Shown here: one piece after another, positions 3,426 to 58,160 of the stretch | Layout: each line of letters opens with the position of its first letter | Numbering within the stretch: position 1 is the first letter of the stretch | From: Mytilus galloprovincialis | Lineage: Eukaryota > Mollusca > Bivalvia > Mytilida > Mytilidae | Direction of reading: 5' to 3' | Assembly: GCF_965363235.1 (NCBI RefSeq) | Contig: NC_134845.1 | Span: forward strand, 23,066,524 to 23,130,523 | Length of the DNA: 64,000 nt | Notes under the pieces: model-generated | Databases searched by the model: none | Told to the model about the DNA's origin: nothing | Seen by the model: the letters and a program-made list of their open reading frames with translations, nothing else | Position numbers and translations under genes: made by a program

Positions 3426-3870
3426 ATTTCAGGTCATATATTATTATAGTTCTCCCTGACTCAAATAGCATTAAGAACATCGCAAAGAATTTAGTATAAG
3501 GAAAGAATCAGCAGTCTAAGAAATTGATGACCTGGGGTAATGCCAAAATATATGAAAGAATCAATACTTCGCCCATCATAATTGTATCAGACGAAACCGG
3601 TAACATTTAAGGGATGGAATTAGAGTATATATTTTCACATAACAACAATGACTTATGTCAAAGACAGCTGGTGGTTTTAAAAAAAAATTCGGTCTTTAAA
3701 AAATAGAAACAACTTTAAATAAACCATGATAGTACAGTTTCTCTGACCATCCGTGCAATGAAATAGACATACCATGAACGATTATTTTTTTCTATTTTAA
3801 ATCCAAGACTTGTATAAAGCTGCCTGATGATAGAAAAATTAAGGGCAACATTTTTAAAGTTTCGCAATAT

Positions 3871-3907
3871 AATTAAAATAGTTATCTCTGATTACGTTAT
3901 ACTACAT
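3871..3907. repeat. Left arm of outer inverted repeat
   Basis: It begins AATTAAAATAGTTATCTCTG and runs to ACTACAT. It is the reverse complement, with few mismatches, of 5091-5136. Apart from a 9-base difference at the inner junction the arms match throughout, so the two look like halves of one older palindromic (MITE-like) sequence, now split by the element at 3908-5090. Confidence 0.65.
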
Positions 3908-3959
3908 CAAGGATTTGTATAGTAAGACAAATATTCCCTTAACGAAAAATAAGCCCTGC

Positions 3960-4135
3960 GACAAACATTTGCCGCAAGTTTGCAGCAAACATTGCCGCAA
4001 GCTTGCTGCAAACTTGCCGCAACCATTTTACCATGCAAATGAAGTTTGCGGCAAACATAATTATGCAAATTAGATTTGCCGCAAGCTTGCGGCAATTGTT
4101 TGTTGCAAACTTGCGGCAAACTTGCAGGAACTACA
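3960..4135. repeat. TTGCCGCAA / TTGCGGCAA palindromic cluster, left
   Basis: At least nine variants of TTTGC(C/G)GCAAAC and TTGC(A/T)GCAA in both orientations occur within about 175 bases. They include a perfect 20-base palindrome, TTGCCGCAAGCTTGCGGCAA, at 4076-4095. Spacing is irregular, so this is a cluster of short inverted motifs and not a regular tandem array. Confidence 0.75.
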
Positions 4136-4784
4136 CATATACCAATGTCATGTGTGTAGACACATTCAATTTATCTCTTTCAAATTACACAGCAACATTT
4201 TTAAAAAGTCAATTCCTGTCTTTATACAAACAGCCATTGAAAGAATTCTTGCAAACTCGTGAGATGTGAGGAAATACATACATGCATTTGAGTTTTGAAA
4301 AAGTGGCAGGAGTCATTCTCAAATGACATAATTATATATAATATACCTGTATTAAAAACTGAAAAAGGCAAAATCTCAAGATGTATTGAGTATAAAGCTA
4401 GGTATAATTGCATTACGGAATTAAACTTAATCTTAATAAACATGATCATGATGGTGCAGTACATCAGTAACAAATTCAAACTTATAATAGCTTAAGTTTT
4501 TTAATCACACATACATGTATATATAGTTGCTTACTTAATTATGTATGATGATAACATTAATTATTTTATTAAAACATGCAGTTCTATGAATCATTTGTAC
4601 TTACACAATTACATACTGATTATCCCAAAGTATTGAACCAAAATGCCTCCTTGATCTCTTATATGTGATATGCATTTCCAAACACAACCAATATGTACTA
4701 GCCACAATTTCAAATTGTTAGCATCCAGGAAGTGCCAGCTAGGCATGCCCAGTCAATATTGTGTAATTCCGGCAATGTTCTGGC

Positions 4785-5056
4785 AAACATATAGAATGGT
4801 CAAAGTTTTCTGCAATCTTGCGGCAAACATATTGAATGGTCAAAGTTTTCTGCAATCTTGCGGCAAACATTCTTTATTATTTTAAACTTTCTGGCAATCT
4901 TACGGCAAACATTGATGTTTCTGCAAACTTGCCGCAATGTTTGCTGGAAGTTTGCAGCTAGCGGCAAACATCTGCAAACACTATGTTCTGTGTTCCTGCA
5001 AAATTTTTGTTTGCCGCAAGCTTGCAGCAAGTCTGCTGCAAGTTTGCGGCAAACAA
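4785..5056. repeat. TTGCCGCAA / TTGCGGCAA palindromic cluster, right
   Basis: This is the second cluster of the same motif inside the element. It includes a local direct duplication: 'gaatggtcaaagttttctgc' occurs twice, about 40 bases apart near 4794-4860, each time followed by AATCTTGCGGCAAACAT. The two clusters lie toward the element's ends and are separated by about 650 bases of plain AT-rich DNA. Confidence 0.75.
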
Positions 5057-5214
5057 CTCATTTTCATAAGGGTTACTATACAAATCCTTGACTACTCATA
5101 TGTAGTATAACGTAATCAGAGATCAATATTTTAATTAGATTGTCGTTAGGAATGGTTAAGAGTTGATCGATTATATCAGCTGATTCAATAGATATGTTCA
5201 TTACAAAACAGTAC

Positions 5215-7980: not shown

Positions 7981-9400
7981 AGTAAGTAAGTAAGTAAGTA
8001 AAACTTTATTTGGATTCGGCATATTGACAAACAATACAAACATAAGCTCTAATGAGCTTTTCACCGAATATAAAAACATATGCAATAACAAATAAAACAA
8101 GGCATGCAGCATGCAATAAATAATAAGAAGCAGCACCAAAAATTAACTCTAAGCAAATAGATAATACATGTATCTTGCAAAATACCAAAACATATATATG
8201 AAGCACTAAAATTTTTAAAAATTTTCTGTTTAAAAATTAATTTTTAAATAATTTATGAATTATAAAGTAAAAAATTCCAAATCTTTCAAATTTTAAAAGG
8301 TAAAAAACAAAATTTCAGTTGCAACGCAGGCTGTTAATGCAACATAAAAAGCATAAATATTGTAACACAAAGTTATCTACAGGCAGAGCAAAAACATTCT
8401 GTTCCACTCCAGGACTGTACAAGACTCTTAAAATGTGAGAAGCTGTTAACAGTCCTGAAGTGGTCAGGTAAGCTATTCCATAAAGTAGCAGCAGCAAAAC
8501 TAAAAGATTTTTTTCCATATGAGGTAGTTCTTACCTGTGGTACATCCAAAATATTGCTGTATCTAAAAGAATATTTAGTGTGTTTAATTTTTATTAAATT
8601 TTGTAAACATACAGGAGCCAAATTATTAAAAATTTTATAAGTCTCAAGTGCCATTGTCCTGATGCGTCTTACTTGTAGGGTTGGAACCTTTGCGTTCTCA
8701 AGAAGAGTTTCAGAGGATGATAAATAGTCGTCGTATACAAATCGTAATGCTCTCTCTTGTATTTTTTCAAGTTTTTTAGAATTTTTCTCTGTACAAAAAT
8801 GCCAAGCCAAAGGGCAAAAATTAAAATTACTCAAAATAAAAGTATGAAAAATTGTAAGTTTATTTAATCTGTTTAAAAATGATCCAATTCTCTTGAGAAA
8901 ATTCAGCTGTTGTGATGCCTTTCTACACAAGTTACTTATATGTGCATCAAATTTTAGTTGGTAATCAATATCAATTCCATGTAACTTTACTGTTTCTTCA
9001 CATGATAAAATATTTTGCTGAATTTGTATAGATGGATTTTTTGCAAAGGTTCTTTTCCCTACAGCAATAACTTGGAATTTATCAGGATTTGCCTGCATCT
9101 TATTTTCTTTAAACCAATCAATAAGCACTTGAGACTCAGATTCTAATGTTGATATGAGATGGTCATAATCCGGACTACTAAAAGACAGAGTATTGTCGTC
9201 CGCATAATTATATAATGTACCATGTTTAACAAAATAAAAAATATCATTTATGAAGATATTAAATAAAAGGGGCCCCAATATAGAACCTTGGGGTACCCCT
9301 TTTTGGATGTCAGCCCAGCTACTCAGAACACCGTTTACTTTAATTTGCTGTTTTCTATCAGAAAGATAAATTAGCGGATAACATGAATTACGGAATAACA
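7981..9400 (-). mobile_element. 5'-truncated CR1/L2-like LINE with reverse transcriptase ORF
   Basis: A minus-strand ORF at 8373-9401 keeps about 342 residues of a non-LTR reverse transcriptase: QKGVPQGSILGPLLFNIFIN (RT motif B region), YADDNT (catalytic box), then thumb sequence and the C-terminal segment AAATLWNSLPDHF seen in CR1/L2 and related clades. The 5' half of the RT and the endonuclease are missing, as in ordinary 5' truncation. The 3' untranslated region runs to about 7981 and ends in an ACTT-type tetranucleotide tail (five units on the minus strand). The retained frame is uninterrupted, so the insertion is fairly young. Confidence 0.88.
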
Positions 9401-10172
9401 CACCGTTATTATACGAATAACACTTGAAATTTTAATATTAGGACATATTGTTGACTTATATACATGTAGTCTAGAAGCAATAGGGCTCTTCATGGTTAGT
9501 TCGGCCATATTGGATATGGGGCAGCTTTTATTTGAATGAGGTGGAAATAGTATGAAAGTAGGTGAAATCCTATGCATGCTTCCAAGCTACTGCACTGTTT
9601 TAATGATATTTTCCCGTATTTTTCACCCAATTTTTACTCCATTATGAAAATCTAACCCTATCCAATATGGCTAACCTAACCGTGAGAGCCAAATTTTGAA
9701 TGGTGCAACGCCATGCCCTTTTTCTTCTAAAAAAATGATGCCAACAGGGTATGAAATTAGCAGGGGCCCACAAACCAATGGCCCCTAAAATTTGGTGTGG
9801 GCTACTGAAATTTCAGCTTTTCTTGTACATGTATAGGACTATATATGTGTACTAACACTAGTGCTAGATTTTTAGTTGGTAGTTTCTGACAAGAGGACTA
9901 ACATACATGTAATTGTGCAACTAAAATTATGACAAACTTAAACAACTTTGAATTTGAACTGTTACTTTAAATTGAATACCCTCTCAACCTCAGTGTCATT
10001 TCCTGTTATTATATTTGCCTCAATGAAAACTAATTGCTTTTGTTTATTATAAAATAAGAAAGGTTCGAGAATCAGATTTATTTTGAGTTGTTACAATCAA
10101 ATTTCTATTACCAAACTTTTGATTTGAATGAAATGTCAAAACATTGTGTTTAAAATTTCTATTATTTTATAG
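9401..10172 (+). promoter_or_regulatory. Region upstream of the TTC29 start exon
   Basis: No coding sequence. The tract ends in TTTCTATTATTTTATAG (acceptor AG at 10171-10172), so the TTC29 start codon lies in an exon preceded by an intron and an unseen 5' UTR exon. That exon and the promoter may lie in this stretch or further left. An imperfect inverted pair, 'ggccatattggat' near 9505 and 'atccaatatggct' near 9659, lies within it. No TATA box could be assigned. Confidence 0.4.
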
Positions 10173-23500: not shown

Positions 23501-26037
23501 TATGATAAACACCTCAAAATAGACATTCAATGAGTTAAAAGCTCATAAATACTCATTCAAACAATACACTTGTAGATTAAAAACACTTGTGACATTATAA
23601 AACGGGATCAACTTGCGCTTTAAATCCCCTAAAGACATTTTGAAAAAAAATTGCAGTTATCATTTGGTTCCAGAGTTTTCTTTTTTTTTAAATAATAGTT
23701 ATTAATCTTTTTTTTATAATTAGAGATTGATTAAACAGTATAACAGTTATTTTAAAAAAATAATTTCAAAGATCCCAAAGCCTTAAACTTTGTATGTCAG
23801 ACGTGTGACTCTTTTACAAAAGACTCATCAATGATGCAGAATAAAAAAGATTGAATCAAAATAAAGTATTAGGTTGAATAGCATTGAGTACCAAACATTC
23901 TGAAAGTTTTTTGTCAAATACAGCTAAGATAACTATTCTTGGATACAAAAACCATACCCAGTAACGTTCAAATCAAGAAGAACTTGAAGAAGAAAATCCC
24001 AACAACAACAGACAATAAAAATAAACATTCCCTTAAGAGAGACAGAGTTCTGAGTCTTGAAAATGAAAACGATAATAGAAACAACGAAAAACACATCACA
24101 AAATACACGAAGAAAAAGTTTAGGAAAGGATACAAAATTTCAACATTTAATGCATGATAGTAATCAAGGAAACTCATTCAATACCTATGAACACTCACCA
24201 GAGCAATACATACAGCATCATAGTAATTATTTTCTTTTCATAACCACTCCTGCAAATCAAAACAACAATGAAGCAACCAAGAAAACGAAGTAATGGAAAA
24301 AGGATTTGGTCCTGTTAAACAATTATATTATTACGCATTAGTACTTCTCTGAACTTGCAATCCAGAATGGTACTTCCACATCCAACTCACATTCCTTTTA
24401 TACTAACACCTTATATCATGGTCAATGTGACTATTCAAACCAAATGGGTTTACAACTTATACTTATAAATATTTTATGAAGGACTTTGTACTATCACGGA
24501 TCCCGCAACCTTTTGTCAGTCAACTGATAGAATAAAATTATCTTATAAACTTATAAGATAATTAAAAACCGAAAATCAAGAAAATAAAACAACATGTTTG
24601 GTAATAGAGGGAGCAACGGAGTATCATACTCCATATCCTCATTACCTTATGATATTGATATTTTAATCAAAGAAAAGCTTTTGCCAAATATGACGAGGAC
24701 TTAATTGTGTAAAACGATTATGAATACGACAAATTGTACATGGAAGTATGCAATATTTGTCATAGTATTGTTGTGAAATACCATAAGGAAAACCCAGAAA
24801 AATTGTTCCCACATATTGAAAATGAGATCAAAACTTGAATTGATTGATTGATTGATTCTTGTTTGCTTTACGTCGCATTATCACAAAAATGTTATATCGC
24901 GGCGATAGCTAATTCGAATATTTTTACATTTTAAAGCATATTTGAAAATCAGACAAAAGGTCCTTCAATAAACTAAAACTCTAGACTAAAAGATAACGTG
25001 ATAAAAATTAAAATCGTCTTAAATATAATAACATTTTTATATTTTATAATATATTCCAATTACTTGAATTGAAGAAATAAACATAGGAATATCTTCAGAA
25101 AGCACAGCAAATTTTGAGAACGCTTAATAATGATAACACCAGTACTAAGCTAAACATTCAACACCATCAAGGAAACTCATTCAATACCTAAATCTTTCCA
25201 AATAGGAATTCTAACCCAGTTACAAAGGGTGGAAAGTAATCCACTGGATGTACAGTGGAATCACTGTTTCTCCTATTTTTAAAGGTCCACAAATAATGTG
25301 AAGCTTCAATTATCCCAAAGCCCAGATCTACAATTTACTGACGGATTTATCACCTTTTGGTCGTGTTAACCACACATATATATTTAGTAATATACGTGCA
25401 TGCATATATCTTTTTGATTTATTCTGTTATACAAAATATAGATACTCATCACATAATGTTAATATAACACGAATTTTTCTTCCTTTTTTTCGTAAAGTGA
25501 TATTTGGTGCAAATACCCTGACTAATCGAAACACTTTAATGTAGAGATAAAATTGATTGGCTAATTTTCTAACTAGTCAAAGTTCAGAAAAATATCGGAT
25601 TACAGTAGCTTTTAAAAAACAACGTCCAGTTGTAAGTTGCCTCTTGAACTAGTCTTAGATATATGTTTCATTATAAATCGCATTAGATCATAAATTTAAA
25701 CTGACCTGAGATGTGGATCAAATAGGCTGAAAAGGATTTATCATGTATGTGTATTGGGTGGAAATAAAACCAGTAATGTAAAGACATGACCCATAAACTA
25801 TCAATACAATAATACAAACGTGCAAGGAAAGCAGAACTGGATTATTGTTTTAAGCTTTTTGTGAATAGTAACCAAAATACACGGAAGAATCCTAGTATCT
25901 TATCACAAATTATGCTTAAAACCTTTCACCATTATGTCACGTGATAAGTTCTAATACAATTAAAGGAGGGGTTGCAGTATCAAAGATCTAAATTCTCTAA
26001 AAATTTACTGAAGAAATAGACGTAATTGTAGAACGTA
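23501..26037. other. Intergenic stretch before the first LRR-Ig gene
   Basis: AT-rich, no convincing gene. It contains an exact 24-base direct repeat (24163-24186 and 25166-25189, starting ATCAAGGAAACTCATTCAAT) about 1 kb apart, and an ATTG tetranucleotide run at 24839-24857. Lys/Asn-rich ORFs at 23939-24293 look like low-complexity chance frames. No TATA box was assigned for the gene at 26038. Confidence 0.45.
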
Positions 26038-27492
26038 ATGTTGGTAAATTTTCTGTGTATCCTTTCTATATTTCTCCACGTTCTGACAGTTTACAGTCAG
26101 CAGTGTCGTCAAGGATGTAAATGTGCGCCAAAAGTAACAATTTGTGTATTCACAAAAATTAGTGGAGTTCCAAACAATCTTCCAACAGCAATTACAGCGT
26201 TGACAATTTCAGGCAGTGTATCTAGTCCGAATTCATTTGGGCATCTCAGTCCGCCTGCGTTTTCATCTTCCAGAATGTCCCATTTAATAATGAGGTATTG
26301 CGGAATTAATGCAGTGGATGCTGGTGCATTTAGAGCATTACCAGAATTGAAAAGATTAAATTTAGAATTCAACAAAATTAAGATTTTAACACAGCAGTCA
26401 TTTCAAGGATTGACAAAGTTATCAACACTCGATCTGACCGGAAATAGAAACTGTGACATTAAACCGAATGCATTTGATGGACTGTCAACTTTATTAGAGC
26501 TACGCTTAGGCGAAATGGACTTGTATACGCTTGATTTAAATTTGCTTCAATCGCTACGTAGTCTTGTCACCCTTGATCTTCATGGCAATAAATTGAAAGC
26601 ACTGGACTGGACTGTTCTATCGTCGCTGACAAATTTAAAGCATATTGACCTCTCCGGAAACCAACTTACAACAATTCCGTCTAACATGTCGTCACTATTC
26701 ACACACATAGTAACAATGAAGGGGAGCATACATCTGGGAAATAACCCTTGGAAATGTAACTGGGAAATTAAATGGCTGAAAAACATGTCAGTGTCCTTCA
26801 GTTCCGTCTTCAGTATAGGAAACATTATTTGCGATTCACCTGCAAATCTTCAGCACATTTCATTAATCAGTGTACCGGATCCATATCTACAACCGATATT
26901 CCCAAAGATTTTACATTGTGACAAAACAAAAGTAACCGTGAATGAAGGTTCGGCTGTATTTATAAACTGTACGATAAAAGGCGATTCAATCACTGTCAAG
27001 TGGATAAATCCGATTGGAACATCATTCCTGTCTTCGTCTTCCCAACTAAATGGACATAATGTGTACGTAAACGGTAGTTTGTACATTGATAGCACGTCGT
27101 CAACCGTTCGTGGTAACTGGACGTTATCGGTATCGTCGCAGTTCGGAGAAGATAAAAGAGTTGTTGATATAAATGTTATTCTATCAACAACAACGACGAC
27201 GACGACGGCACCAACAACAACCACGCTGACACCAACAACAATTACAACAACGCCGACGCCGACAACAACACCGATTGTAACGACAATTATTCCAACAGCA
27301 ACGTTTAAGATTTCAACAACCAAAACGACACCAAAAGTGACGTCACCAAAATTAGTAACGTACGCTGTCAGGTTTCAAGATGTTTCGACAGATTTTACTT
27401 TCAAATGGAATTCTGCCCCGCAAAATAAAGGAAGCGTAGGATACTTAGTCTTAGTTGTTTATGCAGTAATAGCATTCCAACTTTTTGAGTAA
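26038..27492 (+). CDS. LRR-Ig surface protein, probably GPI-anchored
   Basis: A single-exon ORF of 484 residues. Residues 1-20 are a signal peptide (cut after VYS). C23, C27, C29 and C36 form an LRR N-terminal cap (Cx3CxCx6C). LRRs run about 80-235, with clear LxxLxLxxN repeats at 104-213. A C-terminal cap begins at NPWKC (C240, C265, C294), then an Ig-like domain to about 383. A Thr/Pro mucin-like stalk follows (384-440). The end is a hydrophobic segment (SVGYLVLVVYAVIAFQLFE) with no basic tail, which reads as a GPI signal. Two canonical cysteines are missing: W242 replaces the cap's second Cys and L363 the Ig F-strand Cys. Such proteins act in adhesion, neural guidance or immune recognition; the role here is unknown. 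Its closest relative in the window is 43675-45246. Confidence 0.92.
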   Translation: MLVNFLCILSIFLHVLTVYSQQCRQGCKCAPKVTICVFTKISGVPNNLPTAITALTISGSVSSPNSFGHLSPPAFSSSRMSHLIMRYCGINAVDAGAFRALPELKRLNLEFNKIKILTQQSFQGLTKLSTLDLTGNRNCDIKPNAFDGLSTLLELRLGEMDLYTLDLNLLQSLRSLVTLDLHGNKLKALDWTVLSSLTNLKHIDLSGNQLTTIPSNMSSLFTHIVTMKGSIHLGNNPWKCNWEIKWLKNMSVSFSSVFSIGNIICDSPANLQHISLISVPDPYLQPIFPKILHCDKTKVTVNEGSAVFINCTIKGDSITVKWINPIGTSFLSSSSQLNGHNVYVNGSLYIDSTSSTVRGNWTLSVSSQFGEDKRVVDINVILSTTTTTTTAPTTTTLTPTTITTTPTPTTTPIVTTIIPTATFKISTTKTTPKVTSPKLVTYAVRFQDVSTDFTFKWNSAPQNKGSVGYLVLVVYAVIAFQLFE

Positions 27493-37389: not shown

Positions 37390-37440
37390 GTAAAAGCAAG
37401 GATTTGTATAGCAACTTACTATACAAATCCTTGGTAAAAG
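37390..37440. mobile_element. 37-bp minimal CAAGG element with 7-bp target duplication
   Basis: CAAGGATTTGTATAG (37397-37411) and CTATACAAATCCTTG (37419-37433) are exact inverted tips separated by only seven bases (CAACTTA). On both sides stands GTAAAAG (37390-37396 and 37434-37440), a perfect 7-base direct repeat. The tips equal those of the 1.18-kb element at 3908-5090. It looks like a copy with its whole interior lost, or an unusually small insertion. Confidence 0.7.
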
Positions 37441-43674: not shown

Positions 43675-45246
43675 TCAATAGTAAGCATGTTTCAAACTAT
43701 TTGCTCGTGGAGCCACATTAACCCTTCTGGGACTTGGTGTTTTCCGCGGGGTTTTCACAGAATCAAAACGTTCAGCATCATTTACATGTCCAGATTTCTT
43801 ACATTTTAAACAACATATAATTATAGTGAGCAACAACAATAAAAATCCACCACCACCACCAGCCGCGTAATACATCAACATATTTGATGCTTCTGGTGAT
43901 TCCGGTTCCCTGGTTTGTGTAGGAACAGTCGACATTGTTAACATCTTAGACGATGCTGTTGACATAGTTGTCGTTATCATCGGCGTTGTCGTCGGCATCG
44001 TCGTCGGAGTCGTCGTTGGAATCGTCGTTGTAATTGTTGTTGGTGCGGGCGTGGTTGTTGTGGTTGTTGTAGTTGTCGTCGTCGTCGTCGTTGTTGTTGA
44101 TAGAATCACATTAACATCAACAGTCCTTTGATCTTCGCCGAACTGCGATGATACCGATAACGTCCAGTTGCCACGATCGGCTGACGATGTGGCCGCAATG
44201 TACAAACTACCGTTTACGTACACAATATGTCCATTTAGTTGGGAAGACGAAGACAGGAATGAGGTCCCAATCGGATTTATCCACTTGACAGTGATTGAAT
44301 CGCCTTTTATCGTACAGTTTATAAATACAGCCGAACCTTCATTCACGGTTACTTTTGTTTTGTCACAATGTAAAATCTTTGGAAGTATAGGATCTAGTTT
44401 TGGATCCGGGACACTGATTAATGAAATGTATTGTAGATTTGGAGGTGAATCGCAAATAATGTTGCCTAAACTGAACACGGAACTGAATGATACTGACATG
44501 TTTTTCAGCCATTTAATTTCCCAGTTACATTTCCAAGGGTTGTTTCCCAGATGTATGCTCCCTTTCTTTGTATTTATTTGTGTAAACAGTGTGGACGTAT
44601 TAGATGGAATTGTTGTTAGTTGATTTCCGGAAAGATCAATATGCTTCAAATTTGTCATCGACGATAGGAAAGTCAAGTCCAGTGTTTTGATTTTATTGCC
44701 ATGAAGATCTAGGGTGGCAAGACCATGCAGCGGTTTTAGCAAATTTAAATCAAACGTATCCATGTCCATTTCACCTAATCGTAACTCTAATAAAGTTGCC
44801 AATCCATTAAATGCATCTGGTCTTATGTCACACTTTTTGTTACCGGTCAGATCGAGTGCTGTTAACTTTGTTAATCCTTGGAATGACTGCTGTGTTAATA
44901 TCTTAATTTTGTTGAATTCTAAATTTAATCTTTTCAATTCTGGTAATGTTCTAAATGCTCCAGCGTCTATTGCGTCAATCCCGCAATACCTCATTATTAA
45001 ATGCGACATTCTGGAAGATGTAAACGCAGACGAACTGAGATGCCCAAATGAATTTGGACTAGATACGCTGCCTGAAATTGTCAACGCTGTAACTGCTGTC
45101 GGGAGATTGTTTGGAACTCCATTAATTTGGGTGAATACACAAATAGTTACTTTTACCGAACATTTACATCCTAGACGGCACTGCTGACTTTGAACTGACG
45201 AAACTAGCTGAACAAAAAATATCGCTTTTATAAATTGTAGATACAT
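43675..45246 (-). CDS. LRR-Ig single-pass transmembrane protein
   Basis: A single-exon ORF of 523 residues, aligned gap-free with the product of 26038-27492 over residues 1-383. It has a signal peptide (1-20), LRR N-cap (C23, C27, C29, C36), LRRs, C-cap (C240, C265, C294) and an Ig-like domain. A long Thr-rich stalk follows, with a run of about 16 Thr. A Gly-rich start leads into a transmembrane helix (FLLLLLTIIICC), then CLKCKK and a basic cytoplasmic tail of about 40 residues (TPRKTPSPRR). CCLKC could be palmitoylated; TPRK and SPRR are possible kinase sites (inference). The same two cysteines are missing as in the paralog (W242, L363). The genes are convergent, about 16 kb apart. Confidence 0.93.
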   Translation of the reverse strand: MYLQFIKAIFFVQLVSSVQSQQCRLGCKCSVKVTICVFTQINGVPNNLPTAVTALTISGSVSSPNSFGHLSSSAFTSSRMSHLIMRYCGIDAIDAGAFRTLPELKRLNLEFNKIKILTQQSFQGLTKLTALDLTGNKKCDIRPDAFNGLATLLELRLGEMDMDTFDLNLLKPLHGLATLDLHGNKIKTLDLTFLSSMTNLKHIDLSGNQLTTIPSNTSTLFTQINTKKGSIHLGNNPWKCNWEIKWLKNMSVSFSSVFSLGNIICDSPPNLQYISLISVPDPKLDPILPKILHCDKTKVTVNEGSAVFINCTIKGDSITVKWINPIGTSFLSSSSQLNGHIVYVNGSLYIAATSSADRGNWTLSVSSQFGEDQRTVDVNVILSTTTTTTTTTTTTTTTTPAPTTITTTIPTTTPTTMPTTTPMITTTMSTASSKMLTMSTVPTQTREPESPEASNMLMYYAAGGGGGFLLLLLTIIICCLKCKKSGHVNDAERFDSVKTPRKTPSPRRVNVAPRANSLKHAYY

Positions 45247-48200
45247 TGTTATAATTTTTTTTTTAAATATTGAAATTTGAATGTTTTAGTTTTTCAATAC
45301 TATTTAACTCCCGTGTCCAATACTCTCCTTTCACGTATTCTCGAATAATTCGAATTTATATTTTCTCGTGAATATATACAGGAGAGTCGAATCAATTATA
45401 AATATGATAGATAAGATTGAAAGTTTTTATATATTACTTATTTATTTGACTGATTTAAGGCCATACATACATACATATTGGTTTTTCTTGCTTTTATCTC
45501 GTATTTGTTTCGATTTGTGGGTTTATATGTCAATATTCGCACATTATTCGTCGATGTTACTCTCAGCATTTGTTTAAAGAGATAATGCTATCATTTTTAT
45601 GAGCGTTAAAAGCATTTTATTGGACTGTATAAACCTGCTATTTTATGGGTTCCTGGTTCAAAAATATAAGAAAAATATGAACTTGGTATATTTTTGAAAA
45701 TGTTCCTACTACATAGATATAATGATTAAATCTAGGGATACTGTGCCTTTGAACACTTCTAAAATTGTAAATTCTATATAATAATGAATGATTATCGTTC
45801 TTTAAGATGGTTTATTAGTTAAAACTTACTTTTAATATTTAACTTTAGTGAAAGTGGAAAAGACTTTAAATACTAGTTGTGCTTTGAATGCCATTCTATA
45901 AATAATTGAACCAACATATATCATTATTAAATAATAAATTAATAAATGTAGATATTTTGGAAGACATTTTTGGTTACAACAAAACTGTTAAACCTTTTTT
46001 TTATCGAAGACCAAATCTGTAAACTCAGTGGTCTGTTCGTTGAAGCTTGATATCCAAGAATCAACCCTAAGAATATTTTAAGAATAAATTATGATAATGC
46101 TAGGACCGACCAAGTCCAAAGATGGCACCCGCAACCAGTTACCAATTTAATAAGATGTAATTCTCAACCAGTACGTTTGGATAAATTGAATCTGTTAAAG
46201 TTCTAAAAAAAAATGAATATAAAATAGAACTTAAAGTATTGCAATTTTTGCCAATACCAAATTGCCACTGCAAATAATTTACGAAAATTCTTTCATTAAT
46301 AAATAATTATATATTTGATATATTAGATTTTCAATTGATTTCCGATTGCTAGCTGCATAATATCTAGTAGCAAAAATTGTATGCATACATATACATTCTT
46401 ATTCTTAATCGGGTGAAACAAAATTTGATATTTTGGAAGGAAAAAGGACAAAATTTCCAAACCTTTGTGTGGTGATCCTATTTTCTAGTTTTTAACAATC
46501 GCCCGAAAGTAACGTATCAAGTTTCTATCAAAACGTTATGTAAAAAAAAAAGGCAAAGAGCTAATACTTTTAATAACAATAACGGTACCAATTTTTCTGC
46601 ACCAGATGCGCATTTCGACAATACATGTTTAACCTGCCCTTTGCTGTCCGAAAGTTACGTAAACATGTCTTAAGGAATAAGGAATCTATGAAAATCTTAC
46701 ATTTCAAACGATGGAAAAGATTATTTCCGACCTCTGAAATTGAAAATCTGTAACATTACAGACAAACTCAAATGAAAATTCAAACCGTTTCTTAATTTAG
46801 AATTTTTTAAACAACTGAATTTCTATATCGTTGTTTACATTAATTATGTTATGTCTTCACTTCTTGACAAAGTGCATCTATTTTGAGTAAATATAAAATT
46901 TACAACAAACCGGAAAATATTATCGGCCTTTACAAGTGCGACTTGCTACCCCAAGTGAACCAATTATCTGGTAAATGTGGGGATTATTTAATGAATAAAT
47001 GAACAATTTGACGTTTTAGGATGGTATTCAAACATTTATATACATACTTAGGTTGCCCGTTTATCAAAACCCCGATTTGAATCTATCATCTAAATTAAGC
47101 TTTAAGACCATTTAATACAATCCAACTCTTTCTGTGGCTTTGTTCATTACTTTCAATTCCAATTGAATGTTTTGCCGTAAATTATTTCTTTCGATTGATA
47201 AACAATAGTTAAAGTAAAAGGTCGCCTGGTAAATTAGAGAAAATAACAGGTTTATGTCTAGCTTGTTAATATTTGACAGTTGTGAAAATGTATGTTAAAA
47301 GTTCGACAATATAAAACAAAAAGATAGGTTTTAAATCTAATAGATCAAATATTTTACACAGAGTCCCAAAAAATAGACCAAGGGTTGATATTGTTAAAAT
47401 TACCTTGTTGCTTTGATATCATGTGATAAATGTTGAGTAATAGGGGCTGAAATCATTTTATGAAAAAAAGGAAGGCCATACATATATGTGTCTTTTTTCT
47501 TCAAACTAAACAAATATACTTTGAAATGCAACTTTAGAAAGTGAAACAAAATTTCCTTAACCAATCAAGAATTGTCGTCTAAAGCAAATTCAAATTTTAC
47601 TTAGAACATAACTGTAATGTGTTTGCCACAAATTCACTTTACATGATTTACATCTAAAGCATAAAACATAACTATTTGCGACTGTATAAAGATATTGTTG
47701 CCTGGATGAAATGAATGCTTTCTAGTAATTAATTTAAATAAAAACGAAAATAATGATAACCTTAGTGAAAACATAAACATTACTTTCATTTAGAAAGCGT
47801 GTTTTTAATCTGTTTGTTTTTGGGTTTTTTTTATGCATATTACTTTTGATTTACTTACTGTTTTAAAAGGGAAGAAAATAAAATACATAAATAGAAAAGA
47901 TTGATGTTTTTAAAACTTTATCAAACCAATAAAAACTATTATTGTGTATTATATTATATCTGTTCACGCATTATCAACGCTCTAATAATTCATATTAATA
48001 TATTAGTATTAACTGTTTGAGAAATATTTGTAATATACAAATAAATTTTTCATCGACATGCATAAATAAAATTTTGTTTTTGTATATAAAACAGTAAAAA
48101 TCAGGAAATCAATTATTTTATACGCAAGGGAAAACTTTCTCAATGAAGATATTAAATGGGTTACCTATATTAAAACTATTTTGATGACACAAGATTTGGT

Positions 48201-49529
48201 AACATATGGCATAACCAAGAAGGCGTCAATCCGGGTTTTCTTATATACTAATAAACAAAGATTACATTGTCAATCTTAACTAATCCAGAATTAATACACC
48301 CTAACTCATCAAGGGGAGAACTGTAATTTAAATCGGAAATTTAAAAACATTTATAACTTTTAAAAACTTTTGAGGGACAAATAACTTTGAGAGAATGTGA
48401 TTTTTTTTTTAAACTTTGAACCCAATGAATTTATTTATCATTATGAAATGCATTGTTCAAAGATATCATGTGTGTCTCTCTTAGCACTTAATGTAAGTAA
48501 ATCCAGATTTAAGCGCTTTGGAGACACAATTAAGGTTTAAACTGTTAGCACATACTTACAACTTCTCGTCCAATCAAATTGCTTGAATTTGCCTTCTAAT
48601 TTTCATAGTACACACTTTTTCCGTGTACTAAGTAACTACGCATGAATGACCACAAGGGTAAGATTTCATTGTATTGTAATCAAGATATTAGAACAAAAAT
48701 TGCTACTGGCTATTTTGAAATAAATGATGTGTTCCAAATTTAACTAAATAGTTTGTAATTAGTTTTCAAACAGATTTTTAACATCCTATTAATCAATCTT
48801 TTGATCTAAATTTTGTTTTGACAATTAAAAAAGTTTCTTTAATTTAAATAAAGAGTAATAATAATGGTGCTTTATACCTTGATTAAAGTACAACTCAATC
48901 TAAAATTTGTAATCCTTTATCTTCCATGCAATTACTTTGTACACAAAAAGAGTCAACCATGAATCTTTTGAAGGGAAATTATTAATAAAGCAATTTGATA
49001 TATTTAGTCATAAATTGGTCGATAATTGGTTGCCTAATGTCCAGTGACAAATATTTCATGCATATAAACTATCTACTAGACTACCTATGGGTACATACCA
49101 GGGGCAGATCCAGCCATTTTTAAAAAGTGTTTCAACCAAAGATGTGGGAGGGGGATCCAACTGTTTGTACTCATTCAAAAGCTAGTTTTAGGTTTTATGT
49201 GAAATTTAAAAAATGTTTTCAAGAATGTAAAGCTTTCACTGCAATTTAAGAATTGTCTGCTCTTGGTCAATTCATTTTGTCATCTTACCATGTAAATAAG
49301 TACATGTATAGTAAAACAACGCTTCGTTCATATCAATAAACATACTTACACCAGCAGCTACATCTTTACATTCTAAAGTCAAGGGCCTTTTGAAATCCCA
49401 TTTTTACAATGATGATTATAGTGAGTAGATTTACAAAACTACTTAAATGAGCTACATCCAGTCAGCCAAAAAATATCAATAGACTAATTACAGGATTACT
49501 CAAGTTGTAAATATGTGCTAAATTGGATA
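45247..49529. other. Long intergenic stretch upstream of the minus-strand LRR-Ig gene
   Basis: AT-rich DNA. A family D fragment ('gcaccagatgcgcatttcga') at 46603-46622 and a transposon-end-like 'ggggcagatccagccatttt' at 49102-49121 are the only recognised pieces. The promoter of the LRR-Ig gene should lie near 45250-45500; nothing specific could be assigned. Confidence 0.45.
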
Positions 49530-49616
49530 TTGTATAGAAAGGTATATACTATGAAAATAAGAGCTTGGGGCAAAGCCCCTCGCTCTAATTTTCATAGTAT
49601 ATACCTTTCTATACAA
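49530..49616. repeat. 87-bp near-perfect hairpin
   Basis: TTGTATAGAAAGGTATATAC at the left pairs with the reverse complement at the right. Arms of about 42 bases close on GGGGC AAA GCCCC (49567-49579), with mismatches only near the GAGC/GCTC part. It could be a MITE or fold-back element; a sense transcript would form a stable stem. Confidence 0.85.
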
Positions 49617-49964
49617 GATCATACAATAACCGAGACTTATTGCATGATACTAGCAGTGGGTTAATATATATCACTGCGGGTGGTATATCGTGGGTATATC
49701 AGTCCATGAGTGTATCATCAGCTCATGATAAATGAGTTAGAGTTCTGGAACAGACGTTATTTATCACATAAGTATTATTCGTCGATCATTGTCCGTTGTC
49801 AATCGTAAACTCATTGCACTTCAGAACAAAACTATGCAGGGATATTTTACTTATAAAACTTCCTCATTTCGTTTATGATCGATTGATTTATTGATTGTTG
49901 TTATTTGTCCAGTGGCAAATAGTGTATGCATGATAAAGACAAGAACAACTTTAAAATGAATACA

Positions 49965-54899: not shown

Positions 54900-56174
54900 T
54901 TACCTTTCCCAAATTTGGTTTTTTTGTACTAAGGTTTGTTTTGCTTTCTTTATCATTTTTCTCAGCACATCCAGTTCCGATGTCACTAATTGGTCACAGA
55001 AATGACGAGTCAATACGAACTCAGAGTTCCATTCTGATTTTTCTATTGTGCAGGAACGTTTTTTAGTATTTCTGCAGAATTTGTGAACACTAGCTATAAT
55101 TTTCTTAAAATGTCGTACTTCAGTATGAAAAGAATGATTCTGTCGAATTATTTGATTTTCGAGACGTGTTTTGAAGAAGTGGTACAGTAAATTATCAGCA
55201 TTGTTCAGATTTCTGACAATATCTATGTCTTCTCTTGTCAGATTTGGTTTGACGTTATTCCGCCATACCCCTTTGTTAACTGGTTGATATAATATGTCTT
55301 GTATATCCCAGCATAAATATCTTCTCATCAAAACCAGAGATTCGTCGAAAAGTTCGGTTATGATTACAAGTTTGAAATCCTGATCAAGTTCCCGGATGTA
55401 TTCTAGAACAAACGAAGTATTTGATGTTTTCGATTTGGGAATACCGAAATCATACGACATGCCATTTGTGAAAGACCGCCCTATAGCATACTGCTGATAT
55501 ATCTTTTTCACTATAAACTCGTGTAAACGCAAACTCCGTTTTACATTTGGAAATTTTCTCATAACAAGTCTATTAAAGCTAAAGTGGTAAAACGCAGACT
55601 TGAACACTGATAATGGATCACGAAGTATTCCGATGCGAACTGTGTCATTCGGCATAATCTTTTCAAAATCTTGTTTATTATAAATTGCATGGTTGCAAAG
55701 AATGTTATAAGACATGTTTTTCGGTAATTGAAGTACTGTTTCTTTCAACTTTAGATATTTAGATGAAAGATAATTAAACATAGAGCCGTTGTCTCGCTTT
55801 GGAAGAACCATATTTAAATTGTTGGCTTGCACAAATCTTGTAAAAATTCCCCATGCTGTTGTACTTCCTGTTTTGTGAACTTTTACGAATATCACATTTC
55901 TCTGTTTTTTGCACGTATTCTTTGTCATTTCATTCGGCATATCATCTGTGTACGATTTTCTAACAAAATATCGATCTGGTATTGCTTTAAAAGCTTTTGA
56001 TGTTATTGCCCTCTTTTCTAATCCGTCCAAATTATGAGATGTCCACTGTAATTTCGAGTTGACATTTATATTTGATTTATGTATTATAACAAAAATCACA
56101 ATTACGAATAATCCGATTATCCTGAAATTCAAAAAAATATATTTTAAAAACAATATGTTTAAAATCGAGTGCAT
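54900..56174 (-). CDS. Galactose-3-O-sulfotransferase (Gal3ST family)
   Basis: An ORF of 424 residues: a type II Golgi membrane protein that transfers sulfate from PAPS to the 3-OH of galactose on glycolipids or glycans. Residues 19-32 (IIGLFVIVIFVIIH) are the membrane anchor. The 5'-phosphosulfate loop is at about 96-106 (FVKVHKTGSTT), and the 3'-phosphate motif at about 180-193 (RIGILRDPLSVFKS). ELFDESLVLMRRYLCWD and YQPVNKG near 274-301 are family-typical. Length is normal. The first 18 residues may be wrong: a pyrimidine-bearing tract ending in CAG lies just before GATAATCGG, so the real 5' coding exon may be upstream and the ATG at 56174 intronic. Which of the four vertebrate paralogs it resembles most cannot be told by eye. 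Confidence 0.9.
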   Translation of the reverse strand: MHSILNILFLKYIFLNFRIIGLFVIVIFVIIHKSNINVNSKLQWTSHNLDGLEKRAITSKAFKAIPDRYFVRKSYTDDMPNEMTKNTCKKQRNVIFVKVHKTGSTTAWGIFTRFVQANNLNMVLPKRDNGSMFNYLSSKYLKLKETVLQLPKNMSYNILCNHAIYNKQDFEKIMPNDTVRIGILRDPLSVFKSAFYHFSFNRLVMRKFPNVKRSLRLHEFIVKKIYQQYAIGRSFTNGMSYDFGIPKSKTSNTSFVLEYIRELDQDFKLVIITELFDESLVLMRRYLCWDIQDILYQPVNKGVWRNNVKPNLTREDIDIVRNLNNADNLLYHFFKTRLENQIIRQNHSFHTEVRHFKKIIASVHKFCRNTKKRSCTIEKSEWNSEFVLTRHFCDQLVTSELDVLRKMIKKAKQTLVQKNQIWER

Positions 56175-58160
56175 TGTCCATTAGAACAAAATAAGTAATG
56201 AAGCTTTCAAATGTAACAACTTATGTGTATGTTGTTACAGAAAAGACGGATAAAGATCTTAAGCTATTATCATTAATATTAAAATTAATAATACCAATTG
56301 TAGGTTAAGATGACCTTCTTTTACATGAAACTTCGTTAATATGCAAGATTGTATTTTTCTATAACCTGCTGTTGCATAGATCTGGACCATAGCATACAAT
56401 TAAGTTAGCCTCATTCATGAAACATTAAGGTCAAGTTCAGACAATTTTAACATAATCAAGAACATTTTACATATAAAAACTATCAATGAAATTATAAAAT
56501 AATACCTGAAATATGTTACCTCTTAAACTGACAAAATTATTGAGTATTGTCATATGAAAAACTAATAATTTTCAGATTTATATTAATCTAGCTATATCGG
56601 CGTTATGTATCGCTTCATTTAAGTCGATTTATATCAAGATATTTTAGTCGATTAATATGGATCATATCAGTCGATATATATATCGAGTTACTTCAAGTGT
56701 GAATGTGTATCAATTAGTCGATTATTTTTGTTCTGCGATATAATTTGGGGTAAAGGGGATTCTTATTGACTATGAATATATTCCTTGTTTTTGAATTCCC
56801 AGTCTTTGTAAGCAGATTTTCAAAACATGGCTGAAACAAACCCACTGACATAACCATCCTATTTTGAAGAAACCCTTAGTAAGTGTAGGTCTTTCGTTTC
56901 TATGGGTCTGTTAATTCGTGTAATATCCAGTTAACTTTTGGTAGGCAAATTATGGAGTTATCTACCCTAATTATTTATTTCTAGTACATTTCGGATTCAA
57001 GCAAGTTATATGTTGAAATACCAGAACAGGAAAAAGAAACGAATGTAGGACCATAAGTGTTCATACGTATATCAATTATACATACAAGTTATGCGTTATT
57101 GTGTTAAAATAGATAATAGAAATTTACGGACTCCAAAATAACAACGCTGTAAAAATTAGGCCATGATGTGAGCCGGATCCCTATGCATAAATAACGATTC
57201 TGTACATGTGTAGATGCAGCCAAATACTCAAACCATACATGTGTTTTTATGAAGGTATATGTAATTTGTGATATCAAAATGTCGGACTTAAAAATTTACC
57301 AGTTGTTAAAGATCACGTTCCTCGAAATGAAAACGTCACAGCAGACACGGGCATATCGTATATCTATATAACAAAAGATTTGGAAGATATAAAAACATTT
57401 GGAAAATCGCCACGTCCAAATCATTGTGCTCGCCAATCGACAATGTCTTTTTTTAAAACCTCAACCAGAAGCGACACAGGTTTTGCAAGGCGAATCTTAA
57501 CATTTTGAAGATAATGTAATTACTAGAACTAGACTATTTACTTACTTCCATGCTGATAGCAATTTTTTCCAGTACACTAAAAGCATTCTGCAGTCATTTG
57601 TAAAATGAACTTTTTTCACTTTTCATCTGTTACCATATTAAATAAGATTTTCTTTAGTTATTTATTTGCCAACTTAATTACAGTTTTATTAGAGTTATTC
57701 TTATTTATGCATTATTTACAGACTTGTAATGGTTATCAGGCTAAACTGACAGTATAACGACCTACCACTATTAATAAAGATGTATTTAGTCAATAGCTGG
57801 ACAATATGTCACAAAGTTGTATTGATGCGGACCAATGATGTGATGAAATTTTATGTAAAATAAATCAATGTCACCAACTCGAAAAAAAAGGGATTTTTTT
57901 CTCGAAAAATATGTGATGAATCATTTAGTCTCGATCCGTATTCGCCGCTTAATGGTTATAATCTTCTTGAAATACCACTTTCTTTCCTGATGGAACTTTA
58001 AAATGAATTCCGAAGTATTTTACACAGCTAAATTAACTTTTCAAAGTTATACAATTTGTTAGTATTCTTGCTTTTACCACCTTAGTCTGCAGAATATCAC
58101 TGTGTACTTCCCAGTGTACGTACTTATGATCATGCAGTGTACTTACTTATAATTAGTGTT
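56175..58160. other. Stretch upstream of the sulfotransferase
   Basis: AT-rich. 56640-56720 has several 'gtcgat(t)tatat' motifs (e.g. 'agtcgatatatatatcga'), a local low-complexity patch. No exon for the sulfotransferase start could be identified. Confidence 0.4.

Follow-up and report, generated by a model that had tools for sequence, protein, structure and literature searches.

The 37-bp palindrome that lies between two copies of GTAAAAG at positions 37390-37440 of the window (the whole 64-kb stretch analysed, C8:23066524-23130523 of the 1.385-Gb host assembly) is very probably the excision scar of a P-superfamily transposon, and one of many such scars in the host genome. A P-superfamily cut-and-paste transposon, with inverted ends about 35 bp long that start with CAAGGATTTGTATAGTAAGAAGGATTGG and a 7-bp target duplication, would formerly have occupied the site. 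Its transposase would have cut with a long stagger, so that some 17-20 bases of either end stayed behind in the donor chromosome as tails, which might then have been united by end joining, either at a microhomology or through a short filler templated by the tails themselves. The residue of such an event would be two remnants of tip, left and right, separated by filler and enclosed by the two copies of the duplication. P-type excision followed by end joining appears to be the simplest account of the sequences and of their likeness to known systems, and from these we infer that cutting took place, where it fell and by which pathway the break was repaired.

By direct reading, the unit consists of GTAAAAG, CAAGGATTTGTATAG, the seven bases CAACTTA, CTATACAAATCCTTG and GTAAAAG, 51 bases in all, which is exactly the arrangement of two 15-base tips, seven bases between them and GTAAAAG on both sides given in the original prediction. 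On exact tips alone, it divides into a tip at 37397-37411, the spacer CAACTTA at 37412-37418 and a tip at 37419-37433. Comparison by eye with the 34-base end of long elements divides it into a left tip of 15 nt (37397-37411, + strand, identical to the first 15 nt of that end), the filler CAA at the junction (37412-37414, +) and a right tip of 19 nt (37415-37433, CAAGGATTTGTATAGTAAG on the - strand). The left copy of the target duplication occupies 37390-37396 (+), where related empty sites (L004 and L133-L138) hold a single copy, and the right copy occupies 37434-37440 (+). Four exact copies of the 15-base tip are present in the window, two in this unit and the others at 3908-3922 and 5076-5090.

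The site sits inside an interspersed repeat, and the empty sites come from related repeat copies within one assembly. When the flanks were joined with one GTAAAAG, 40 of the 40 scored places (among 2,840 candidates) matched over the junction, at lengths that exclude the insert. A single GTAAAAG without the insert was found in all six copies of the host repeat that were fetched (L133-L138), as well as in L004, which is 78% identical to the window site; these empty sites support the claim that a real insertion took place. Window positions 48545-49035 (+) form a related empty site for another scar (L076, C1:68.67 Mb), with 97.4% identity over 493 bases and the insert absent, and additional single-copy empty cases are given by the pairs L001 and L082, and L065 and L083. 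The junction alignments of L003, L040 and L045 are gapped or diverged and prove little.

Target duplications were tallied at 50 sites, namely 49 of the 50 listed places with 15-base arms, all on contig C1, and the window site; the listed place left out (L021, C1:3869897) has a perfect 7-bp duplication of its own. Perfect 7-bp duplications flank 36 of the 50, while every other length from 3 to 11 gives at most one. Flank comparison revealed duplicated loci (L046 and L049 repeat L037, L052 repeats L051, and L053 repeats L047), and removal of L046, L049, L052 and L053 left 46 independent sites. Among these, the 7-bp duplication is perfect in 34 and has one mismatch in 10, so that 44 of 46 agree in at least six of seven positions; for every other length between 4 and 11 there is at most one perfect duplication, with none at 8 bp, and the left 7-mers are all different (46/46). 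The 7-base duplication and the element boundary at CAAGG, both proposed originally, are supported, and the target duplications flank residual tips without an interior, as in an excision footprint. Two of the 46 sites (L048 and L058) have four mismatches and no recognisable duplication, which counts against the scar reading.

Genome-wide, where repeat counts are lower bounds, tips with 15-base arms and a spacer of 0-30 bases were found at 649 places and none in the reversed control, so that tip-to-tip copies, the count asked for along with the original prediction, occur well above chance. Arms of 10 bases with the same spacer range gave 1,228 places (control 0), a spacer of 31-60 gave only 27 (control 0), and 15-base arms with a spacer of 61-90 gave 2 (control 0). 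The scarcity of units beyond a spacer of 30 indicates that sizes break off sharply near 50 bp. Single 15-base tips number 1,911 + 1,839 (control 1 + 1), and 24 of the first 30 tips listed have a partner, exact or mutated, 24-45 bases away. Among the other six, L007 belongs to a 98-bp pair with an imperfect duplication, L017 and L026 appear by eye to be 20-bp remnants, between GTTTGAT/GTTTAAT and between two AAGTAAT copies, respectively, and L006, L014 and L020 showed no convincing partner tip. For six additional tips, longer pieces of sequence were read: L090 and L092-L094 have a partner at 24-38 bases, L089 showed no convincing partner in the stretch read, and L091 forms a pair 194 bp long without a duplication. 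Both this last pair and the tips without a recognisable partner count against the scar reading. One repeat carrying a diverged unit supplies five of the first 30 tips (L005, L008, L024, L025 and L033), and the genome counts thus include some copies made by duplication.

Junctions were studied in 46 of the 50 listed units with 10-base arms, four duplicated loci being removed; the 10-base pattern cannot see arms shorter than 10 nt, and arm lengths were scored against the verified 34-base end only. The units have a median length of 35 bp (24-50). Their 92 arms measure 11 (4), 12 (8), 13 (8), 14 (11), 15 (6), 16 (16), 17 (17), 18 (4), 19 (5), 20 (10), 21 (2) and 23 (1) nt, numbers of arms in brackets, which places 33 of 92 arm ends at 16-17 nt, 10 at 20 nt and one beyond 21. 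A pattern without the outer CAAGG part, requiring at least 19 nt in both arms, matched 199 places (control 4), and the arms of 50 such listed units measure 19 (32), 20 (52), 21 (5), 22 (2), 23 (8) and 34 (1) nt. Arm lengths fall after 17 and again after 20 nt, with a ceiling at 23 and one arm of 34. Arms of up to 20 and sometimes 23 nt, longer than the 17 nt seen in Drosophila, count against the scar reading. The mode at 16-17 nt fits the Drosophila cut, while the arms clustered at 20 and the limit of 23 would suggest that the stagger is longer or that some fill-in occurs.

Interrupted gap repair, in which both ends would be extended inward on the sister chromatid as template and then prematurely joined, the interior being lost by incomplete synthesis, is an improbable origin for these units. 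In wild-type flies, this route is usual after P{wa} excision, most products reflecting incomplete copying followed by end joining (PMC2895639), and it could also account for arms longer than 17 nt as well as for the rare units in which a single arm is long (about 66 nt in one case, 34 nt in another). However, gap repair predicts broad sizes, whereas the units end near 50 bp: places number 1,228 against 27 with 10-nt arms and 649 against 2 with 15-nt arms. End joining after partial copying, the majority outcome in wild-type flies (PMC2895639), is rare among the mussel units. Random loss of the interior as the main route is rejected on the size distribution.

The junctions also bear on whether the 37-bp unit might itself be a miniature transposon moved by a P-type transposase. 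The perfect 7-bp duplication and the intact tips would suit such an element. Miniature families share a common internal sequence at many independent sites, but here 36 distinct spacers were found among the 46 independent sites of the duplication tally, and the commonest, TAAGA (6 sites), is a filler-free join. Moreover, 37 bp lies far below the end lengths of known P-type derivatives: Drosophila P deletion derivatives must retain terminal stretches of at least 138 bp and 216 bp, and Anopheles P-type miniatures keep less than 100 bp per end (PMC1562414). Mobility of the unit itself is accordingly very improbable. In the 46 units with 10-base arms, the joins comprise 8 overlaps, 9 direct joins, 14 with 1-5 nt of filler and 15 with more, and those at TA (a 32-bp unit) and at TATA (a 24-bp unit) occur among the units with 10-base arms. 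In the 17 fillers of at least 5 nt, 29 of 113 5-mers are derived from the tips, against 7.7 (sd 3.2) after shuffling, and 0 of 2000 shuffles reached 29. Such variable and partly templated junctions are those of an excision footprint. The original prediction had offered both a tiny transposon-like unit and the product of interior loss; the latter is supported, while the former is not, given junctions that vary by site, filler copied from tips and sizes that end near 50 bp.

Long elements with the same ends are present in the host genome. Their longer, 34-base end, CAAGGATTTGTATAGTAAGAAGGATTGGAATCTC, was seen in at least two of the 27 units with a spacer of 31-60, and with up to 2 mismatches it has 79 + 81 occurrences (control 0). 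Among the 100 matches listed, the end often stands in inward-facing pairs about 4.2 kb apart, and three pairs are 10.3-10.8 kb apart; the 7-bp duplications are perfect in 11 of 11 long-element pairs chosen from this listing. A 4.16-kb copy read whole is flanked by CTTCAAA and has no frame over 84 aa. A profile search for PF21787, the N-terminal RNase H domain of P-type transposases, gave 51 places in the host genome. A 10,434-bp element (C2:19499970-19510403) holds, in order, PF21787 (4.6e-20), PF21788, the GTP-binding insertion (8.1e-6, a partial match over positions 56-117 of 119, half of the profile), and PF21789, the RNase H C-terminal domain (8.6e-4, over the profile cut-off). Two other PF21787 places lie near a 34-base end, 4.3 kb off on C12 and 5.1 kb off on C6, and PF21788 and PF21789 likewise follow in order beside the C6 end. 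Searched against Pfam at 0.01, a 779-aa frame of the C2 element matches PF21787 alone (1.2e-21), and among solved structures it matches only the Drosophila P transposase 6p5a (7.5e-5). No THAP domain was found by Pfam in this frame, the part of the 10.4-kb element that was covered, which counts against the assignment.

Two marks of the P superfamily, a P-type transposase (an RNase H fold with a GTP-binding insertion) between inverted ends and a target duplication of 7 or 8 bp, were thus found, the duplication being 7 bp in 11/11 long pairs and 34/46 scars. An hAT-type miniature element, the identity named in the original prediction, is hardly conceivable, for although the CAxxG tip of the unit presumably resembles hAT ends, hAT identity is rejected on the duplication length, with the 8 bp expected of hAT at 0/46 sites against 7 bp at 34/46, and on the P-type transposase domains within an element sharing these ends. 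In addition, several of the 51 P-type RNase H matches lie within open frames of over 800 aa (for example, on C4, C5, C11 and C12, with L096 as one case), which indicates the presence of additional P families, with scars open to the same kind of count.

The window has just one more exact pair of tips, at 3908-5090 and 1,183 bases end to end, which is, as judged from its sequence, a second scar that was later hit by an unrelated repeat. Its left target duplication, ACTACAT, is read directly at 3901-3907 (+), followed at 3908-3935 (+) by a 20-nt tip (3908-3927) and the filler CAAATATT. An unrelated interspersed repeat, CCCTTA...TAAGGG, occupies 3936-5072 (+), and the right part of the scar at 5073-5090 (-) comprises TT at 5073-5074, which looks like a 2-bp duplication belonging to the inner repeat, and, at 5075-5090, ACTATACAAATCCTTG. 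The right target duplication at 5091-5099 (+) reads ACTAC-TC-AT and is imperfect, with two extra bases. The 1,183-bp unit was scored at 40 places, including the window itself (296 candidates); neither bases 1-9 nor bases 1171-1183 are covered by any other listed match, and the majority of matches start at base 22 or later. Seven inner-repeat copies were fetched, of which six start with CCCTTA and one with CCCTCA, six end with TAAGGG and one with TAAGG, and all have different flanks; the CAAGG tips are absent in 7/7, and a 2-bp duplication is visible by eye in six of them and in the window copy. Copies in different flanks and without CAAGG tips show that 3936-5072 is a separate repeat inside a 44-bp P-type scar. 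The original prediction had referred to a 3.9-kb element with these tips; none was found in the window, and perhaps an element located at about 3.9 kb was meant. The interior of that tip pair is an unrelated repeat, and the 1,183-bp unit is rejected as relative or parent of the 37-bp unit.

The inner repeat is about 1.14 kb long, its scored copies are 83-94% identical, and an 11-bp motif resembling TTGCCGCAAGC recurs many times close to each of its ends. Positions 3865-3907 and 5100-5142 form 43-nt arms (93%) of a palindromic sequence with the second scar at its centre. A further near-perfect palindrome, with 46-nt arms (91%) and 3 nt between, lies at 49526-49620 and is of unrelated sequence. 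The window also holds two inverted paralogous open frames at 26032-27492 (+) and 43675-45285 (-), 89% alike over 1,145 nt and by eye leucine-rich-repeat-like with threonine-rich tails, as well as a reverse transcriptase frame at 8373-9431 (-; PF00078, 8.8e-14). An open frame of 426 aa at 54900-56180 (-) presumably resembles a carbohydrate sulfotransferase, as judged by eye.

The comparable junction data used here come from Drosophila crosses (PMC2895639). In Drosophila, P transposase cleaves one strand at the 3' end of the element and the opposite strand 17 nt inside it (PMC7776569). The donor site is left with 3' tails of 17 nt, which in flies deficient in Rad51 are joined to give duplication, tip, filler or microhomology, tip and duplication (PMC2895639). 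Drosophila P{wa} junctions and mussel units thus share the order of duplication, tips, microhomology or templated filler, and duplication (PMC2895639, Table 1); a size limit near twice the tail length and templated filler are further points of likeness, and the join of two 17-nt tails at a TA microhomology is found in P{wa} and likewise in the mussel 32-bp unit (PMC2895639). Because the flies of that table were spn-A mutants, deficient in Rad51, the likeness holds for copy-free end joining (PMC2895639). The duplication is 8 bp in P{wa} and 7 bp in the mussel, and the tips reach 17 nt in Drosophila but 20, sometimes 23, in the mussel (PMC2895639). The table also has many deeper joins, such as 14 isolates keeping about 8 nt, a class that is invisible to the patterns used for the mussel (PMC2895639).

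Galileo, of the P superfamily, shares the 7-bp duplication, with a consensus of GTANTAC (PMC4168063). The 36 perfect mussel duplications (two from duplicated loci) agree with this consensus at 3.0 of 6 positions, against 1.72 (sd 0.18) for shuffled letters. Galileo ends are long and internally repetitive (PMC3573991), whereas those of the mussel element are about 35 bp, and the word "footprint" does not occur in the Galileo paper (PMC4168063). Zebrafish Pdre2/THAP9 is, like the mussel family, a P-like transposon of a non-insect animal, and Pdre2 can be excised in cells; it differs in its 13-bp ends and 8-bp duplication, and THAP9 excision in fly cells leaves larger flanking deletions (PMC10983969). 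The 15-mer tip had no match in the open-access literature, and no paper with a genome-wide record of this kind appeared among the open-access titles and abstract openings listed for P footprints and for bivalve P elements, the best-ranked part of the matches (for example, 12 of 54 and 12 of 19).

Events of this kind are already known, and the interest of the mussel case lies in the size of the record and in a break that may lie 17-20 bases in from the ends. Very short palindromes flanked by perfect duplications risk being filed as unexplained miniature elements or being missed in repeat annotation. By pattern counts, scars outnumber surviving elements by more than 10:1, a ratio of 1,228 exact 10-base-arm places (some duplicated, 4 of 50 sampled) to about 160 ends, or about 80 elements, with diverged copies of both missed; this would make end joining, rather than sister copying, the usual lasting fate of donor sites. 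It is a tentative proposal, to which we give slightly less than even chances, that the genome archives more than 1,000 P-type excision and repair events, in which a cut about 20 nt inside the end (17 in Drosophila) and the end-joining habits of the germline could be read, with end joining, not sister copying, as the usual lasting outcome. Read as scars, the palindromes would provide a countable record of P-type departures, an approximate cut position and a view of germline joining in a non-model animal.
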